DNA from: Eubacteriales bacterium
GTDB lineage: Bacteria; Bacillota_A; Clostridia; Christensenellales; Aristaeellaceae
Direction: 5' to 3'
Assembly (NCBI GenBank): GCA_028692205.1
Contig: JAQUXV010000008.1
Span: 1 to 24,354 of the forward strand
DNA: 24,354 bases
This document shows, one piece after another, positions 10,427-24,033 of this stretch (within the stretch, counting starts at the first letter, position 1; every line of letters begins with the position of its first letter). Under the pieces are notes generated by a model. That model saw nothing but the letters and a program-made list of their open reading frames with translations. It was not told the origin of the DNA and ran no database searches. A program made the translations under genes and the position numbers.

Positions 10427-12052
10427 TTACGCGTTCAGGAACAGCGCGATATCATCCTCCGGCGTGCCGATGCCTGCGATGCCGAACTTCTCCACCAATA
10501 CCTTTGCGACGTTGGGGGAGAGGAAGCCCGGCAGCGTGGGGCCGAGGTGGATGTTCTTGATGCCGAGGTACAAAAGTGCCAGCAATACGATAACGGCTTT
10601 CTGCTCATACCACGCGATGTTGAAGGCGATGGGCAGCTGGTTGATATCCTCCAGCCCAAACACTTCCTGCAGCTTCAGGGCGATGACTGCGAGCGAGTAG
10701 GAATCGTTGCACTGGCCCGCGTCCAGCACACGCGGGATACCGCCGATATCACCCAGCTTCAGCTTGTTGTAGCGGTACTTGGCGCAGCCCGCGGTAAGGA
10801 TGACCGTGTCTTTGGGCAGCTTCTCGGCAAAGGTTGTGTAATACTCGCGGGATTTCATACGCCCGTCGCAGCCCGCCATGACGAAGAACTTCCTGATCGC
10901 TCCGGTTTTCACCGCCTCGACGATTTTATCCGCAAGGGCGATTACCTGATTATGCGCGAACCCGCCCACGATGCTGCCGGTTTCGATTTCCTCCGGCGCG
11001 GGCAGTGTTTTCGCCAGTGCGATGATCTCGGCGAAGTCCTTCCGGCCGTCCTGATCCGGCAGGATGTGGCGGCAGCCGGGATAACCGGCGGAGCCGGTGG
11101 TAAAGATGCGGCCCTTCACCTCTTCGCTGCGCGGGGGCACAATGCAGTTAGTGGTGAACAGGATGGGCCCGTGGAAGGAAGCGAATTCTTCCGTCTGCTT
11201 CCACCAGGCGTTGCCGTAGTTGCCCACGAAGTTCGGGAACTTCTTGAACGCGGGGTAGTAATGAGCAGGCAGCATTTCGCTGTGGGTGTACACGTCTACG
11301 CCGGTGCCCTGTGTTTGTTCCAGCAGTTGTTCCAAATCGGTCAAGTCGTGGCCGGAAATCAGGATGGCGGGGTTTTGGCGAACGCCGATATCGACGCTGG
11401 TGATCTCAGGGTGGCCGAAACGCCCGGTGTTGGCCCCATCCAGCAGGACCATCGCTTTCACGCCGTGCTCGCCGGTTTTCAGCGTGAGCGCAACCAGCTC
11501 GTCGGCGGTCAGGCTGTCATCCAGCGTTGCGGCCAGCGCTTCGCAGATGAACGCGCTGATGTCGGGATCGGTCTGGCCGAGGTTGGCCGCGTGCTCGGCA
11601 TAAGCCGCTATCCCTTTCACCCCGTAGGTGATCATTTCCCGCAGGGAGCGCACATCCTCGTTCTCAGTTGCCAGCACACCGATCATTTCTGCCTTTTGCA
11701 ACATGGTTTCGCGGGCCGTTACGGTGAAGGTGGCGGCGCCGTGCAGGCGGGCGTCCGGTGCGGGAAGCCGATCGCGGATATCGATCATTTTCAGGATCTG
11801 CCGTTCAATTGCGCCGTCGTCGAAGTTGGCGTTGGTGATGGTCATAAACAGGCTGTTGAAGAGTTCCCGTTCCAGATTGCCTTGCTTTGCGAGGTCGAGC
11901 TTCCCTTTAACGACGATCTCCGCAATGCCCTTGAGGGTGTAGATCAGCAAATCCTGCAGCTTGGCGACTTCCTCGGTCTTGCCGCATACGCCGCGCAGGG
12001 TGCAGCCTTTACCGCCTGCGGTTTCCTGACATTGATAACAAAACATGCTCAT
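10427..12052 (-). CDS. hcp: Hybrid-cluster protein (Hcp, prismane/hydroxylamine reductase)
   Basis: This 541-residue protein begins at an ATG whose first base is 12052, eight bases after an AAAGGAGGC ribosome site. The N-terminus carries cysteines 5, 8, 17 and 23 ([13 protein letters not shown]...GVC), the Cx2Cx8Cx5C cubane motif of class I Hcp from anaerobes. Later motifs including [10 protein letters not shown] and GQCNDSYS supply ligands of the hybrid 4Fe-2O-2S cluster. Hcp reduces nitric oxide to nitrous oxide with high activity and hydroxylamine to ammonia in vitro, protecting cells from nitrosative stress. It is the last gene of a leftward operon with a cupin and a ferredoxin protein, opposite a Crp/Fnr regulator. 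Confidence 0.96.
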
Positions 12053-12072
12053 TTTTGTGCCTCCTTTGGTTG

Positions 12073-12387
12073 TCAACGGGTTGGGGCGGGCGCTTTCACC
12101 ACGATCAGTTCCAGCGTTTCCAGCCCGGAGTTGCGTACGTTCATTTTGGTTCGTACAGGAATCTTCAGCAAGGTTCCGGCATCGTAACGGCGGGGCTCCC
12201 GCCCGTCCAGCGCGATGGAGAGTGTTCCACGTATAACCGTCATGTACACGTTGGCGTTGGCATTGTGCTCCGGCAGCCCGTCGCCCGGAGCGAACACCAT
12301 ATGAATGTATTGCAGGTAATCGTCCAGCAGTACCTTTTCGACAACGGTCTGATTTTCTCTCGGTATGTTAAATATTTCCTCGTTCAT
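12073..12387 (-). CDS. Small cupin-domain protein
   Basis: This 104-residue protein is a single cupin barrel. It starts at an ATG with first base 12387, eight bases after AGGAGG. The first cupin motif is degenerate: [20 protein letters not shown] keeps one histidine of the usual H-x-H pair, with asparagines nearby. The second motif is [18 protein letters not shown] and lacks the usual histidine, so metal binding is uncertain. It sits between the ferredoxin protein gene (13 bases upstream) and hcp (20 bases downstream), so all three are likely cotranscribed. Its role in the nitrosative-stress operon is unknown; a sensor or small-molecule binding role would be a guess. Confidence 0.8.
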
Positions 12388-12400
12388 TCCAACAATCCTC

Positions 12401-13093
12401 CTATTCCAGGATTCTTCCGTCGGTCGCAATGGTTACGACGCTCCACGGGATGAACTTTCCGCTGTTTTGCAGCGCGCGTTTGGCTGCGTTCTCAATGCCG
12501 CCGCAGCAGGGAACCTCCATGCGGACGATGGTAACGCTTTGAATATCGTTGTATTGAATGATGTCCGTAAGCTTTTCGGTGTAATCCCCCTCGTCCAGCT
12601 TGGGGCAGCCGATCAGGGTGACACGGTTGCGAATGAAGCGGTTGTGGAAATCGCCGTAAGCGTAGGCCGTGCAATCGGCGGCGATCAGCAGATGGGCATC
12701 CTTGAAATAGGGCGCGTTGACTGGCGCAAGCTTGATTTGCACCGGCCACTGGGTGAGGCGGCTCGGGTTTTCGTGGGGCTCGGGGGCGGTTTCCGCAGGC
12801 TCGCGGCGGATGGCGCGGGATTGCGTGCCCGGACAGCCGCAGGCCAACGGGGCGTTCTGCCGTTTATGCGCCTCCACGGCGGCTTCGTTATAGGCTTCGG
12901 CTTCCCGCTCCTCAAAGCTGATGGCTCCGGCGGGGCATGCGGGCAGGCAGTTCCCCAGCCCGTCGCAATAATCGTCCCGAAGCAGGCGCGCCTTTCCGTT
13001 TACCATCCCGATGGCGCCCTCGTGGCAGGCCTCCGCACACAGCCCACAGCCGGTGCATTTATCCTCATCGATTTTAATGATCTTGCGAAGCAT
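12401..13093 (-). CDS. Dicluster 4Fe-4S ferredoxin protein of the hcp operon
   Basis: This 230-residue protein opens with a bacterial ferredoxin domain. Cysteines 13, 16, 19 and 23 form one complete cluster. YCDGLGNCLPACP supplies cysteines 43, 49 and 53 of a second, atypical one. After a linker with a CGC pair (84-86) comes a ~110-residue C-terminal domain with ADCTAYAYGDFHNRF, LIGCPKLD and PCCGG, rich in potential metal or cluster ligands. The start at 13093 follows a GAGAGG site. Proteins of this layout recur beside hcp in Clostridia. I infer that it donates electrons to Hcp, in place of the Hcr reductase used by enterobacteria. It is the first gene of the leftward operon. Confidence 0.88.
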   Translation of the reverse strand: MLRKIIKIDEDKCTGCGLCAEACHEGAIGMVNGKARLLRDDYCDGLGNCLPACPAGAISFEEREAEAYNEAAVEAHKRQNAPLACGCPGTQSRAIRREPAETAPEPHENPSRLTQWPVQIKLAPVNAPYFKDAHLLIAADCTAYAYGDFHNRFIRNRVTLIGCPKLDEGDYTEKLTDIIQYNDIQSVTIVRMEVPCCGGIENAAKRALQNSGKFIPWSVVTIATDGRILE

Positions 13094-13168
13094 AACATTC
13101 CTCTCTCTCTTCCCGTTTGCGGGAGGGGGTTACAGGGAGGGGCCGCGATCGCGTAAACTAGCAGCTCC

Positions 13169-13197
13169 TTGACTTTACGGTTTCATTTTAGTATGCT
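13169..13197 (+). promoter_or_regulatory. Sigma-A promoter of the Crp/Fnr regulator gene
   Basis: TTGACT (13169-13174) and TATGCT (13192-13197) are separated by 17 bases. The -10 lies 43 bases before the regulator ATG at 13241. The palindrome at 13212-13227 lies just downstream of the expected start point. Confidence 0.7.
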
Positions 13198-13227
13198 GTG
13201 GCTGAATAGTATGTTGGAAATACAACA
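13188..13227 (-). promoter_or_regulatory. Probable activator-dependent promoter of the hcp operon
   Basis: On the minus strand a TACTAA -10 (13188-13193) has no recognisable -35. Instead the palindrome TGTTG-N6-CAACA (13212-13227) is centred roughly 38 to 41 bases before the expected start point. That is the position where Crp/Fnr proteins activate class II promoters. Start point and activation are inferred. Confidence 0.45.
13212..13227. promoter_or_regulatory. Candidate Crp/Fnr operator, TGTTG-N6-CAACA
   Basis: This 16-base inverted repeat has the 5-6-5 geometry of CRP/FNR sites (TGTGA-N6-TCACA). It lies between two divergent genes, one of which encodes a Crp/Fnr protein. It could activate the hcp operon and repress the regulator's own gene. 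Binding is inferred. Confidence 0.5.
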
Positions 13228-13240
13228 AAACGGAGCTGTT

Positions 13241-13921
13241 ATGGAAGAATATTTTGAAATTCTGAAAAGCGTGGAGCTGTTTCAGAACATCAGGCCGGAG
13301 GAACTGCCGCAATTACTGGCCTGTCTGGACGCGCGGGTGGTGCGTTACATAAAAAACCAGACCGTCTTTTCCAGCGGCGAGAGCATCCGCCGGTTCGGCA
13401 TTGTGCTGAGCGGCGGGGTGCAGGTGGTGCATGATGATTTTTACGGCAACCGCAGCATACTGGGCAATTTCGGCACGGGGGAGCTGTTTGGCGAATCCTT
13501 TGCGTGCGCGCAGGTGAAGGCGCTGCCGGTAAGCGTGATCGCGACCGCTGAAAGCGAGGTAATGCTGATCGACTGCCAAAGGCTGGCGGTTCCCTGCGCG
13601 CGTGCCTGCGGGTTCCACGGTACGCTGATCCGCAACCTGATGGGCGTAATCTCCCAAAAGAACATCGCGTTGACCCGCAAGATGGAACTGACATCCAAAC
13701 GCACCACGCGGGAGAAGCTGACGGCCTATCTGATGACCGAAGCCCAGCGGGCGGGCGCAAGCCGGTTTACGATTCCGTTTGACCGGCAGGGGCTGGCGGA
13801 TTACCTGTCGGTGGACCGCAGCGCCATGTCGGCGGAGCTTTCCAGGCTGAAACGGGACGGCATTCTGGATTACCACAAGAACCGGTTTGCGCTGTTTTCG
13901 CCGGATGAGGGCAGGAGATGA
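13241..13921 (+). CDS. Crp/Fnr-family transcriptional regulator (HcpR-like by context)
   Basis: This 226-residue protein has an N-terminal cyclic-nucleotide-binding-type beta-roll (residues ~10-125, including FGTGELFGESFAC). A C-terminal winged helix follows, with QGLADYLSVDRSAMSAELSR at 182-201. I start it at 13241 because GGAG lies six bases before that ATG; a longer version would have no ribosome site. No N-terminal Fnr-type cysteine cluster is present, so it is not a canonical Fnr oxygen sensor. It is divergent from the hcp operon, as are HcpR regulators that sense nitric oxide, often through haem. I infer nitrosative-stress control, but the ligand cannot be read from the sequence. Confidence 0.9.
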   Translation: MEEYFEILKSVELFQNIRPEELPQLLACLDARVVRYIKNQTVFSSGESIRRFGIVLSGGVQVVHDDFYGNRSILGNFGTGELFGESFACAQVKALPVSVIATAESEVMLIDCQRLAVPCARACGFHGTLIRNLMGVISQKNIALTRKMELTSKRTTREKLTAYLMTEAQRAGASRFTIPFDRQGLADYLSVDRSAMSAELSRLKRDGILDYHKNRFALFSPDEGRR

Positions 13922-20768: not shown

Positions 20769-21105
20769 AGGGAGAACAGAATGATCGGAAGGATCTTGGC
20801 GAAGAACTCAATTTCGCTTGAGTTGTCAGCCGGGCGGATCGGCGCGATTTTCGGAGGCTTGTGTTTAAGGGGACGCCTTCGTGTCCATATAATTATTGGA
20901 AGTTGCTGCCGGCCGGCCCCCGCCGGGCAGCAGTCCGGACGTTTACTTTCTCAGGCGGAAGGCGAAATGAAGTGCCTGAAAGATAGCGGAATCGTCCACG
21001 GACATTACTGCGGGGAGGATATCTTAGTGAATCGCTGGTTCGCGTCGGGCGCTGGGAAACCCCGGCATGCCCGGATCAGCTTTTCTGAAACGGGAGGGTA
21101 CCTGC
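20769..21105. other. Unassigned region between the phosphoesterase remnant and the dioxygenase
   Basis: No supported gene is seen in these ~337 bases, although long open frames exist in more than one phase. A GC-rich imperfect hairpin (GCTGCCGGC against GCCGGGCAGC, one G bulged, about 20904-20933) has no U-run. No promoter for the dioxygenase gene could be assigned. Confidence 0.4.
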
Positions 21106-21888
21106 ATGAGCTTGATGCCGGTTTTGTTTGTGGGGCATGGATCGCCCATGAACGCCATAGAGGATAATACGTTTTCCGAACGGTGGAAGCAGCTTGGCGC
21201 GCGGCTGCCGAAGCCTGAAGCCATTTTATCCGTTTCCGCGCACTGGTTTACCAATGGAACGAAGGTAACGGACACCCCCGCGCCGAAAATGATCTACGAT
21301 ATGTACGGCTTCCCGGAGGCACTGTACCGAGTCACGTACCCCGCGCCCGGCTCGCCGCGCTTTGCGCGGCTGGCGAAAAACCTGATCGGAAGCGGGGTAG
21401 AGATTGATAATACCTGGGGGCTGGACCACGGCAGCTGGTCCGTGCTGCGGCGCCTCTACCCGGATGCGGATGCTCCTGTTTTCCAGCTCAGCGTAGACGC
21501 GCAGGCCTCTATGAAGGAACATTTCGAAATCGGCCGAAAGCTGCGTTCGCTCCGCGAGCAGGGCGTGCTGATTTTTGGCAGCGGCAACGTTGTGCATAAT
21601 CTGGCGCGCGTCGACTGGAACATGGACGGGGGATTCCCTTGGGCGGACACGTTTGACGGTTATATTCGGGAGAATGTGCTGCATCGGAATTTTAAAAACG
21701 TCGTCGGGTACGAACAGGCCGGTTCGTCGGCTTCGCTCGCCTTTACGACGCCGGATCATTTCGCCCCGCTGCTGTATGTGCTGGGCGCGTCCGACGAGCG
21801 GGATCGGATATCTGTTTTTAACGAGGCCCGCATGATGGGCTCGCTTTCAATGACCAGCTACCTGTTTGAGCAGACATCGGCTGACTGA
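21106..21888 (+). CDS. ygiD: Extradiol ring-cleavage dioxygenase, DODA/LigB type
   Basis: This 260-residue protein belongs to the class III extradiol family that includes YgiD 4,5-DOPA dioxygenase. Candidate metal-binding histidines are His11 (GHGSPMNA), His46 (SAHWFT) and His217 (PDHFAPL). His107 (LDHGSW) is in the catalytic position and His163 (VVHNL) is also conserved. The start at ATG 21106 follows GGGAGGG at the right spacing. Known members open catechol rings with O2, which is striking in an apparent anaerobe. A pirin gene follows 33 bases later, and the two are likely cotranscribed. The natural substrate is unknown. Confidence 0.87.
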   Translation: MSLMPVLFVGHGSPMNAIEDNTFSERWKQLGARLPKPEAILSVSAHWFTNGTKVTDTPAPKMIYDMYGFPEALYRVTYPAPGSPRFARLAKNLIGSGVEIDNTWGLDHGSWSVLRRLYPDADAPVFQLSVDAQASMKEHFEIGRKLRSLREQGVLIFGSGNVVHNLARVDWNMDGGFPWADTFDGYIRENVLHRNFKNVVGYEQAGSSASLAFTTPDHFAPLLYVLGASDERDRISVFNEARMMGSLSMTSYLFEQTSAD

Positions 21889-21921
21889 CAGACGAAACGA
21901 GACATCCGGGAGGTGTACACA

Positions 21922-22758
21922 ATGAGCAGGTGTGAAATTAAAAAACTGGTTCGGGGACAACGGGCGACCGACGGCGCGGGCGTCCGGCTGGTTCGGGTGC
22001 TGGGCTACGGAACGGTGGAGGATTTTGATCCGTTCCTGATGCTGGACTCTTTCGACTCCACAAAGCCCGCCGATTATACGCCGGGCTTTCCCATGCACCC
22101 GCACCGGGGCATTGAAACGATCACCTACCTGATCTCCGGCAGAATTGAACATGAGGACAGTTTGGGCAACAAAGGGGCGATCCTTGCGGGGGAAAGCCAG
22201 TGGATGACCGCCGGGAGCGGCATTCTGCATCAGGAAATGCCAAAACCGTCGGAGCGGATGCTGGGGTTTCAACTCTGGCTGAACCTGCCCCAGACCGAGA
22301 AAATGGCGGCCCCGGCCTACCTGAGCATCACCCGCGACAGGATTCCCCATACAGCCATTGGCAAAGCGGAGGTTTTGGTTCTGTCGGGAAAACTGGGGGA
22401 GGCTCAAGGGGTTACGCCCCGGCATATTCCGGCAACAATTTTCGACGTGCGGCTTCCCGGCGGGGAAGAAGTGGAGCTTCCCACACAGCCGGAGGAAACG
22501 GTGTTTGTTTTCCTGATCGAGGGGAACGCGACCATCGGCGGGCAGCCGATACCGGAAAAGACGGCCGTGTTGTTCGGCGAGGGGGATTCCATTGCCGTGG
22601 CCGCGCCGCCGGACAGCGACTTGCGTTTCATCTTCTTCTCCGGCAAAGCCCTGCATGAGCCGGTCGCCTGGGGCGGCCCGATTGTGATGAACACAAGGGA
22701 AGAGCTGGAGCTTGCGTTTGACGAGCTTCAAAGGGGCGAGTTTATCAAACACCGTTAA
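21922..22758 (+). CDS. Pirin-family bicupin (quercetinase-like)
   Basis: This 278-residue bicupin has the pirin signature in its N-terminal half: HPHRGIETITYLISG, with metal ligands His59 and His61, and GILHQEM, with His103 and Glu105. The C-terminal cupin is less conserved, as usual. The start at 21922 follows CGGGAGGTG. Bacterial pirins such as YhhW show quercetin 2,3-dioxygenase activity in vitro, while others bind partner proteins, so the role here is open. Its position directly after an extradiol-type dioxygenase suggests a joint role in handling plant phenolics or quinones. Confidence 0.9.
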   Translation: MSRCEIKKLVRGQRATDGAGVRLVRVLGYGTVEDFDPFLMLDSFDSTKPADYTPGFPMHPHRGIETITYLISGRIEHEDSLGNKGAILAGESQWMTAGSGILHQEMPKPSERMLGFQLWLNLPQTEKMAAPAYLSITRDRIPHTAIGKAEVLVLSGKLGEAQGVTPRHIPATIFDVRLPGGEEVELPTQPEETVFVFLIEGNATIGGQPIPEKTAVLFGEGDSIAVAAPPDSDLRFIFFSGKALHEPVAWGGPIVMNTREELELAFDELQRGEFIKHR

Positions 22759-23314: not shown

Positions 23315-23397
23315 CAGCCTCCGGTGGCAAATTCGGCGGCGTATCGCTTTGGCCGGAAGAACCAGCGCTTTCCGGTATCGACTCTACGGAGCGTTCA

Positions 23398-23426
23398 TTG
23401 GCTTTTCTCCTGTCGCCTGCTATACT
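23398..23426 (+). promoter_or_regulatory. Promoter of the XRE-desulforedoxin-SOR gene
   Basis: TTGGCT (23398-23403) and TATACT (23421-23426) are 17 bases apart, with an extended TGC before the -10. Transcription would start near 23433, directly before the ribosome site, giving a very short leader. Confidence 0.6.
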
Positions 23427-23448
23427 TTCGATTCGGAGGCGAATGCAC

Positions 23449-24033
23449 ATGGATTGCGCAAAGATCGGGAAACGGATACTGGCCCTGCGGAAAGAACAGG
23501 GACTTACGCAGCGGCAGCTGGCCGAGCAGATGAACATCAGCGATAAAGCGGTTTCCAAATGGGAGTGCGGGCTGGGCTGCCCGGATGTGTCTTTGCTGCC
23601 CGAATTATCCAAAATTCTTGGCGTGCCGTTGGAAGAACTGCTTTCCGGCGAACGGAACGCCAACGATCTGGTGGGAGGCAACATGAAAAAGACTCAATTC
23701 TACGTATGCCTGAACTGTGGTAACCTGCTTACTTCAACCGCGGATGCGGCGGTGGCCTGCTGCGGTAAAACCCTTGCGCCGCTGACGCCGCAGAAAGCGG
23801 CGGAGGCGGAGCGCCTGTCCGTAACCATGGTGGAAGGCGACTACTTTATCACTTCGGAACATGATATGACCAAAGAACACTACATCGCTTTTGTCGCGCT
23901 TCTCACGGGGGACAGCCTGATGCTTCGCAAACAGTACCCGGAGTGGAACCTGCAAACGCGAATCCCCTGCCACGCGCACGGGCTGCTGGTGTGGTACTGC
24001 ACCCGGCACGGGCTGTTTTACCAGACCGTATAA
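23449..24033 (+). CDS. XRE-type regulator fused to desulforedoxin and superoxide-reductase-like domains
   Basis: This 194-residue protein has three parts. Residues 5-65 are an XRE/Cro helix-turn-helix (LTQRQLAEQMNISDKAVSKW). Residues 84-110 resemble desulforedoxin: cysteines 87, 90, 104 and 105 in CLNC...CC order could hold one iron. Residues 125-194 resemble the superoxide reductase iron domain, with EHDMTKEHYI (His138, His144) and WYCTRHGLF (Cys184, His187) matching the HPMxxxHYI and CNxHGLW motifs. The fourth histidine of superoxide reductase is not seen. Start 23449 is chosen because CGGAGGC lies eight bases before it; ATG 23443 is too close. I infer an iron-based sensor of oxygen or superoxide controlling transcription. 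HTH-Dx-SOR fusions have been noted among superoxide reductase families, but their function is little known. Confidence 0.82.
   Translation: MDCAKIGKRILALRKEQGLTQRQLAEQMNISDKAVSKWECGLGCPDVSLLPELSKILGVPLEELLSGERNANDLVGGNMKKTQFYVCLNCGNLLTSTADAAVACCGKTLAPLTPQKAAEAERLSVTMVEGDYFITSEHDMTKEHYIAFVALLTGDSLMLRKQYPEWNLQTRIPCHAHGLLVWYCTRHGLFYQTV

Follow-up and report, generated by a model that had tools for sequence, protein, structure and literature searches.

Proteins in which a DNA-binding domain precedes a superoxide reductase (SOR) module were named as a class, HTH-Dx-SOR, by SORGOdb in 2011, when they made up 19 of 325 proteins, and the SORGOdb expression for centre II, HX5H-CX2H, does not require the first histidine of that site (PMC3116461). 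What is accessible of that paper assigns the class neither a function nor an operator or a regulon. The gene analysed here, hth-dx-sor, lies in a 24,354 bp stretch of DNA from a Eubacteriales bacterium (contig JAQUXV010000008.1), which we call the window. Its product resembles the class, as the accessible SORGOdb text describes it, in having an N-terminal HTH, a desulforedoxin (Dx) and a SOR domain in that order, and in a centre II that agrees with HX5H and CX2H. It differs in the replacement of the first SOR histidine by glutamate and in its centre I, which is CX2CX13CC rather than CX2CX15CC and so falls outside the screening expression; because of this two-residue difference in spacing, we file the window protein in HTH-Dx-SOR by architecture only. 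The catalytic SOR centre II motif is given in the available text of another source as (E)(K)H(x)19-27H(x)5H(x)40-63C(x)2H (PMC11980386). Glu121 and Ala120 of the window protein depart from this motif, and so does its spacing, with 16 residues separating 121 from 138 and 39 separating 144 from 184.

Unlike the window protein, the Dx-SOR or desulfoferrodoxin proteins (2Fe-SOR; PDB 1dfx, 2ji1) and the SOR 1y07 have no HTH, and 12 canonical Dx-SORs keep the sequence EKH where the window protein has E-A-E. Its HTH fold is common to XRE/HTH_3 regulators such as P22 c2 and SinR, but its second domain, which is SOR-like with metal sites, sets it apart from these and from λ cI. When bound at OR2, λ cI is an activator that sits beside the -35 hexamer, and the site predicted for the window protein likewise adjoins -35. 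SoxR, OxyR and PerR have other folds and other metal sites, and are alike only in the working idea, namely that redox chemistry at a metal or thiol site is converted into a transcriptional response. The oxygen-related XRE protein TrtA of Treponema denticola (104 amino acids; PMC12724145), as far as the accessible text describes it, matched nothing after its residue 81 and is not a Dx-SOR relative on that evidence.

No functional study of HTH-Dx-SOR proteins was found in the open-licence PubMed Central literature. Within the literature searched, the architecture is already known, and the ligand swap, operator and regulon proposed below appear not to have been described. The full explanation that we favour, with somewhat better than even confidence, is that the window protein is an autoregulated, metal-dependent one-component redox regulator.

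Domain architecture of the window protein

The features of the gene and its promoter are collected in Table 1. The N-terminal part belongs to the XRE/HTH_3 family, with an HTH_3 match at residues 11-64 (E 4.2e-14, 52.8 bits against a curated cut-off of 23). Taken alone, the Dx/SOR part of the window protein gives only weak matches, to PF01880 (E 0.0047, below Pfam's cut-off) and TIGR00320 (E 2.1e-6, also below cut-off). An 87-row profile of the family, in contrast, matches desulfoferrodoxin 2ji2 over residues 81-191 (E 2.9e-11), and hhalign of the family profile to the 12 canonical Dx-SORs gives a probability of 99.5 (E 1.2e-22). The original prediction, made from the window sequence alone, had named an XRE domain, Dx cysteines at 87, 90, 104 and 105, and a SOR-like site keeping His138, His144, Cys184 and His187; all are found at those positions, and the profile matches bear out the SOR-like fold. 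Centre II comprises H138-x5-H144 and C184-x2-H187. Judged from these matches, the window protein is an HTH DNA-binding domain fused to a remodelled, putatively metal-binding SOR-like domain.

Table 1. Features of the hth-dx-sor gene and its predicted promoter in the window
Feature	Position	Strand	Basis or remark
hth-dx-sor gene, 194 aa	23449..24033	+	ORF translation; most aligned homologues are 194 aa with the same start Met
XRE/HTH_3 DNA-binding domain, residues 1-68	23449..23652	+	
Desulforedoxin-type (centre I) Cys4 site C87, C90, C104, C105, CX2CX13CC	23689..23775	+	Ligand conservation
SOR-like (centre II) domain: E121 (first-His position), H138, H144, C184, H187	23803..24030	+	Ligand conservation and profile matches
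Glu121 codon, aligned with first SOR His	23809..23811	+	MAFFT and hhalign, register agrees
Operator-like motif ACTCTACGGAGCGTTCATTG	23381..23400	+	Exact match to family motif
Near-palindromic part of operator-like motif	23383-23397, centre 23390		About -43 from predicted transcription start
-35 hexamer TTGGCT, abutting near-palindrome	23398..23403	+	
-10 hexamer TATACT, 17-bp spacer	23421..23426	+	TAnnnT at 16-18 bp in 89/91 family promoters
Ribosome-binding site GGAGG	23435..23439	+	Sequence

Conservation and remodelling of the metal ligands

Among the best 120 of 4,601 homologues, C87, C90, C104, C105, H138, H144 and C184 are present in 120/120 and H187 in 119/120, and these eight ligand-type residues rank among the most conserved columns, a conservation beyond chance that supports the predicted ligand set. 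The first SOR histidine has no counterpart in the window protein, as had been suspected: Glu121 takes its position in both MAFFT and hhalign alignments, the latter placing E-A-E under the EKH of canonical SORs with Ala120 at the lysine position. In the same best 120, position 121 is Glu in 95, Asp in 19, Gln in 3, Lys in 2 and His in 1. The suggestion that the iron site is left "open" thus stands as to the missing histidine and is doubtful as to the vacancy, since the acidic residue found there in 114/120 may itself be a ligand; with the first His replaced in this way, centre II may be Fe(His)3(Glu)(Cys).

More distant relatives show a wider range. In the best 80 of 592 loci (43-66% identity) the four Dx cysteines and H138 are kept in 80/80, H144 in 71, C184 in 70 and H187 in 53, and position 121 is His in 31/80, within motifs such as DEEH and DEKH that MAFFT aligns to canonical EKH. 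A non-redundant set, made by thinning 274 sequences at 85% identity to 195 (12 of them canonical), contains 183 HTH-Dx-SOR rows, among which the Dx cysteines and H138 are invariant (183/183), the first His is present in 57 and all five centre II ligands are kept in 51. The lysine of EKH occurs in 3 of the 57 His121 rows, versus 12/12 canonical SORs. Some relatives have an eroded centre II (e.g. EHNSD and QHESD patterns) and retain all four Dx cysteines; His121 is also absent from all 15 rows in which C184 is replaced and from all 15 in which H144 is. We note that His138 is kept even in rows lacking the other centre II ligands. His177, a candidate substitute ligand, is found in 77 of the 97 rows that lack the first His and have H138, H144, C184 and H187, versus 22 of the 57 first-His rows, a comparison confounded by kinship.

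These counts bear on the strongest competitor of a metal-borne signal, in which the Dx-SOR part is a zinc-type structural module, a degenerate scaffold that mediates dimerisation or contact with proteins in an ordinary XRE autoregulator with a signal that no metal carries. Cys4 sites often contain zinc, which would make the site structural, and universal conservation in the non-redundant rows is limited to the four Dx cysteines and His138, the other centre II ligands having been lost in several lineages. A mere scaffold is nevertheless hard to reconcile with the near-invariance of His138, His144, Cys184 and His187 in the closest proteins, and we consider it unlikely. On balance we lean towards sensing that is metal-borne in the window protein; given the erosion of centre II in some relatives, sensing through a metal at that centre cannot be common to the whole family.

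Distribution and history of the family

At a threshold of E <= 1e-20 the window protein has matches, including a few partial ones, in 73/394 genomes sampled from one order and 76/391 from its class. A tree was made from 141 rows (129 HTH-Dx-SOR and the 12 canonical proteins as outgroup) and 111 columns, with the trait columns left out; 67 of its 138 inner branches are unresolved. Its early lineages mostly have His121, and the window protein falls in a set of 50 rows of which 40 are acidic, 8 other and 2 His at this position. The likely history, read from this tree, is that a full SOR site lost its first His and that H144, C184 and H187 were then lost in some lineages. The tree therefore offers a natural series from a complete (His4Cys) through an acid-substituted to an eroded site, along which a step from enzyme to sensor could be traced. 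An unannotated faecal phage record, MT835563.1, carries at 21718-22296 a homologue that is 43% identical over 98% of the query.

Promoter and predicted operator

The family motif ACTCTACGnnnCGTnnnTTG adjoins the -35 box of the hth-dx-sor promoter, its TTG being the start of -35. It was sought in 100 upstream regions (99 loci plus the window, L055 and L116 being one site), which remained of 139 loci considered once loci with insufficient upstream sequence, an opposite-strand match or an ambiguous start had been set aside. It is exact in 43/100 and within two mismatches of its 14 fixed bases in 89/100, versus 0/500 mononucleotide shuffles and 0/100 reverse strands; a recognisable copy is absent from 5/100. 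A conserved upstream palindrome in homologues had been proposed as a thing to look for, and a near-palindrome is what these regions contain. As one data set served both to find the motif and to count it first, the -10 and genome-wide comparisons are the more independent ones. At the 91 sites with three or fewer mismatches, a TAnnnT -10 stands at 16-18 bp in 89, versus 0-20 at shifted positions. Half-site positions agree at no higher rate than the composition of their columns would give, and the case for dimeric symmetry therefore comes from the consensus.

The promoter match in the window is not by itself beyond chance (1 found, 1.1 expected in shuffles), and is credible because of the family-wide support. 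The very short leader in the original prediction is seen there: 22 nt separate the -10 from the start codon, with GGAGG between them, and the family median is also 22 nt. No second site within three mismatches occurs in the 24-kb window.

Genomes were scanned with a pattern of 13 fixed bases, CTCTACGnnnCGTnnnTTG, which is present in 23/26 genomes picked via best hits and in 32/80 further carriers of the regulator (55/106 in total; the other 48/80 further carriers have no exact match), versus 1/80 non-carriers. The non-carriers are genomes of the same order and class that have no match to the protein at 1e-20, and the single site among them, in L225, could be assigned to no target. The association of pattern and regulator has a Fisher p of 5e-16 pooled and 2e-10 with the second carrier set alone, and the site accompanies the regulator across genera, from Cohnella and Paenibacillus to Oscillospiraceae. 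Of the 64 sites in the 106 carriers, 48 lead to an hth-dx-sor gene (3 at a split copy and 1 with a long leader) and 11 to one of three recurrent target families. The other 5 have no clear target: 2 of the 30 sites in the first carrier set (G010:C12, G013:C31) and 3 of the 34 in the second (G596:C1:785333, G144:C22, G409:C13). Among sites with a single mismatch, those of G459 and G628:C66 also lead to no target family. The view that this deeply conserved site in front of the gene is the regulator's predicted operator is thus strongly supported by comparative sequence, and the window protein is very probably a regulator with its own putative operator. We note that site G596:C1:785333 is upstream of a DUF2087 gene, and that in L230 an HTH-only protein (71 amino acids, no Dx-SOR) lies behind the same operator and is followed by a GIY-YIG-like gene.

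Candidate regulon in relatives

Conserved neighbourhood was no guide to function: among 444 neighbour proteins at 80 loci, no family occurs in more than 8 loci, so it was the operator, rather than synteny, that identified candidate targets. The 11 target sites precede genes for CAT-like acetyltransferases (3 sites; Pfam CAT 3.5e-61, whereas the match to NCBI's CatA model falls short of its cut-off), FMN-reductase-type flavoproteins (3 sites; FMN_red 2.4e-18) and a 113-residue GIY-YIG-like protein (5 sites; weak TIGR01453 match, 6.5e-4), a provisional name. The flavoproteins have a four-cysteine motif like that of Isf proteins. One of the five GIY-YIG-like sites, G010:C17, and a single-mismatch site of G651 are upstream of more distant relatives of that protein.

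The converse comparison covered 53 carriers, and homologues above about 50% identity were called close; for CAT it took 30 of 34 matches in carriers. Close homologues are linked to the operator or to the regulator's operon in 10/11 cases for CAT, 6/6 for the flavoprotein and 8/8 for the GIY-YIG-like protein, 24/25 in all, or 21/22 without the three homologues that were themselves the queries, which were drawn from operator hits. Eight further close homologues were first seen via the operator scan; of the other 14, 13 are linked, 12 in the regulator's own operon and 1 following the GIY-YIG-like gene at an operator site. Of the distant homologues, 3/41 are linked (CAT in carriers 2/19, CAT in non-carriers 0/8, flavoprotein 1/7, GIY-YIG-like 0/7), the flavoprotein case being a tandem copy in L278, 50 bp behind a close flavoprotein gene and inside the regulator's operon. 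All these rows share ancestry and are not independent draws. The close CAT homologue G398:C111 has no operator site. Among 80 non-carriers no close CAT homologue was found (best 37% identity), nor any flavoprotein homologue at 1e-30, an empty result that alone shows little. In L070 / L172 (Clostridium sp. E02) a regulator with a shortened SOR part is fused in frame to the flavoprotein, which is an operon partner elsewhere.

This target set weighs against the one-component oxygen or superoxide switch of the original prediction, in which superoxide or O2 would act on the centre II iron and turn on superoxide defence. The SOR fold, the presence of most ligands and the full ligand set of some relatives do agree with such a switch. 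However, the operator sites with an assigned target include none at a recognisable SOR, rubrerythrin, catalase or flavodiiron gene, and none of the recurrent operator-sharing genes is a classical superoxide-defence gene; the catalytic Lys is nearly always absent; and the family occurs in Cohnella and Paenibacillus genomes (L040/G015, L047/G018) that yielded no Desulfoferrodox match at E <= 0.001. We regard the superoxide or oxygen signal as improbable, and the superoxide switch as a guess. The target set points instead to a putative role in protecting the cell from small molecules that are toxic or redox-active, and away from general superoxide defence or superoxide removal.

Proposed mode of action

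A regulator acting on such targets could work as follows. A dimer of the HTH domain would bind the near-palindrome TCTACGnnnCGTtnA abutting the -35 of its own promoter, and the bound protein may contact RNA polymerase and so activate transcription, by analogy with λ cI at OR2. The predicted site could also serve repression; activation fits better than steric repression because the site is fixed near -43, directly upstream of an intact -35/-10, and we think it moderately likely that activation is the mode of action and that the regulator gene is probably self-activated. The Dx-SOR part, from the conservation of its ligands, would bind metal in the Cys4 centre I and in a remodelled Fe(His)3(Cys) centre II with Glu121 replacing the first His, and one or both of these centres, on being oxidised or on binding a ligand, may alter how the protein binds DNA or touches the polymerase. 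Its counterparts in relatives appear to drive the small regulon of CAT-like acetyltransferase, flavoprotein and GIY-YIG-like protein.

We do not expect the window protein to reduce superoxide efficiently, since the first His is lost in its clade, the Lys of EKH is rare and a separate SOR match above 58 bits is present in 17/26 carriers. A bifunctional protein, still an enzyme and using its HTH for autoregulation, is accordingly very improbable for the window, where the first His is missing and Ala120 stands at the Lys position, even if earlier-branching relatives retain all five ligands and might be thought to favour it, and many carriers already have a separate SOR.

Extending the metal-dependent regulator to the whole family, we offer tentatively, and with less than even confidence, that in a widespread Bacillota family a SOR iron site may have been made a sensor by a swap of its first His for an acidic residue, and that it may activate its own gene and a small detoxification regulon in response to redox-active compounds or NO, in the manner of the unrelated SoxR. 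With this operator and these targets, a class known through annotation gains a testable regulon.

Other genes of the window and insertions into hth-dx-sor

At 10427-13921 the window contains, on the - strand, genes for a hybrid-cluster protein (Prismane, 9.4e-173), a ferredoxin-like protein and a protein with a weak cupin match, and an adjoining Crp-type regulator gene on the + strand; the arrangement resembles an hcp/HcpR nitrosative-stress locus. At 21067-22758 a LigB-type dioxygenase gene is followed by one for pirin.

Although intact in the window, the hth-dx-sor gene is a recurrent insertion site (L304, L305, L306/L307, L309). Three genomes have a copy split near codon 40 (SKWERG), in which about 10-25 kb separates a part with the operator and N-terminus from a part encoding residues 38/39-194. 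A large serine recombinase gene ends beside the C-terminal piece, and the recombinases are 67-89% identical to one another; L309 has a partial recombinase that is 98% identical to that of L304. The element ends at the split copies are imperfect inverted repeats, and L304 also carries an ORF that by eye is nucleotidyltransferase-like.
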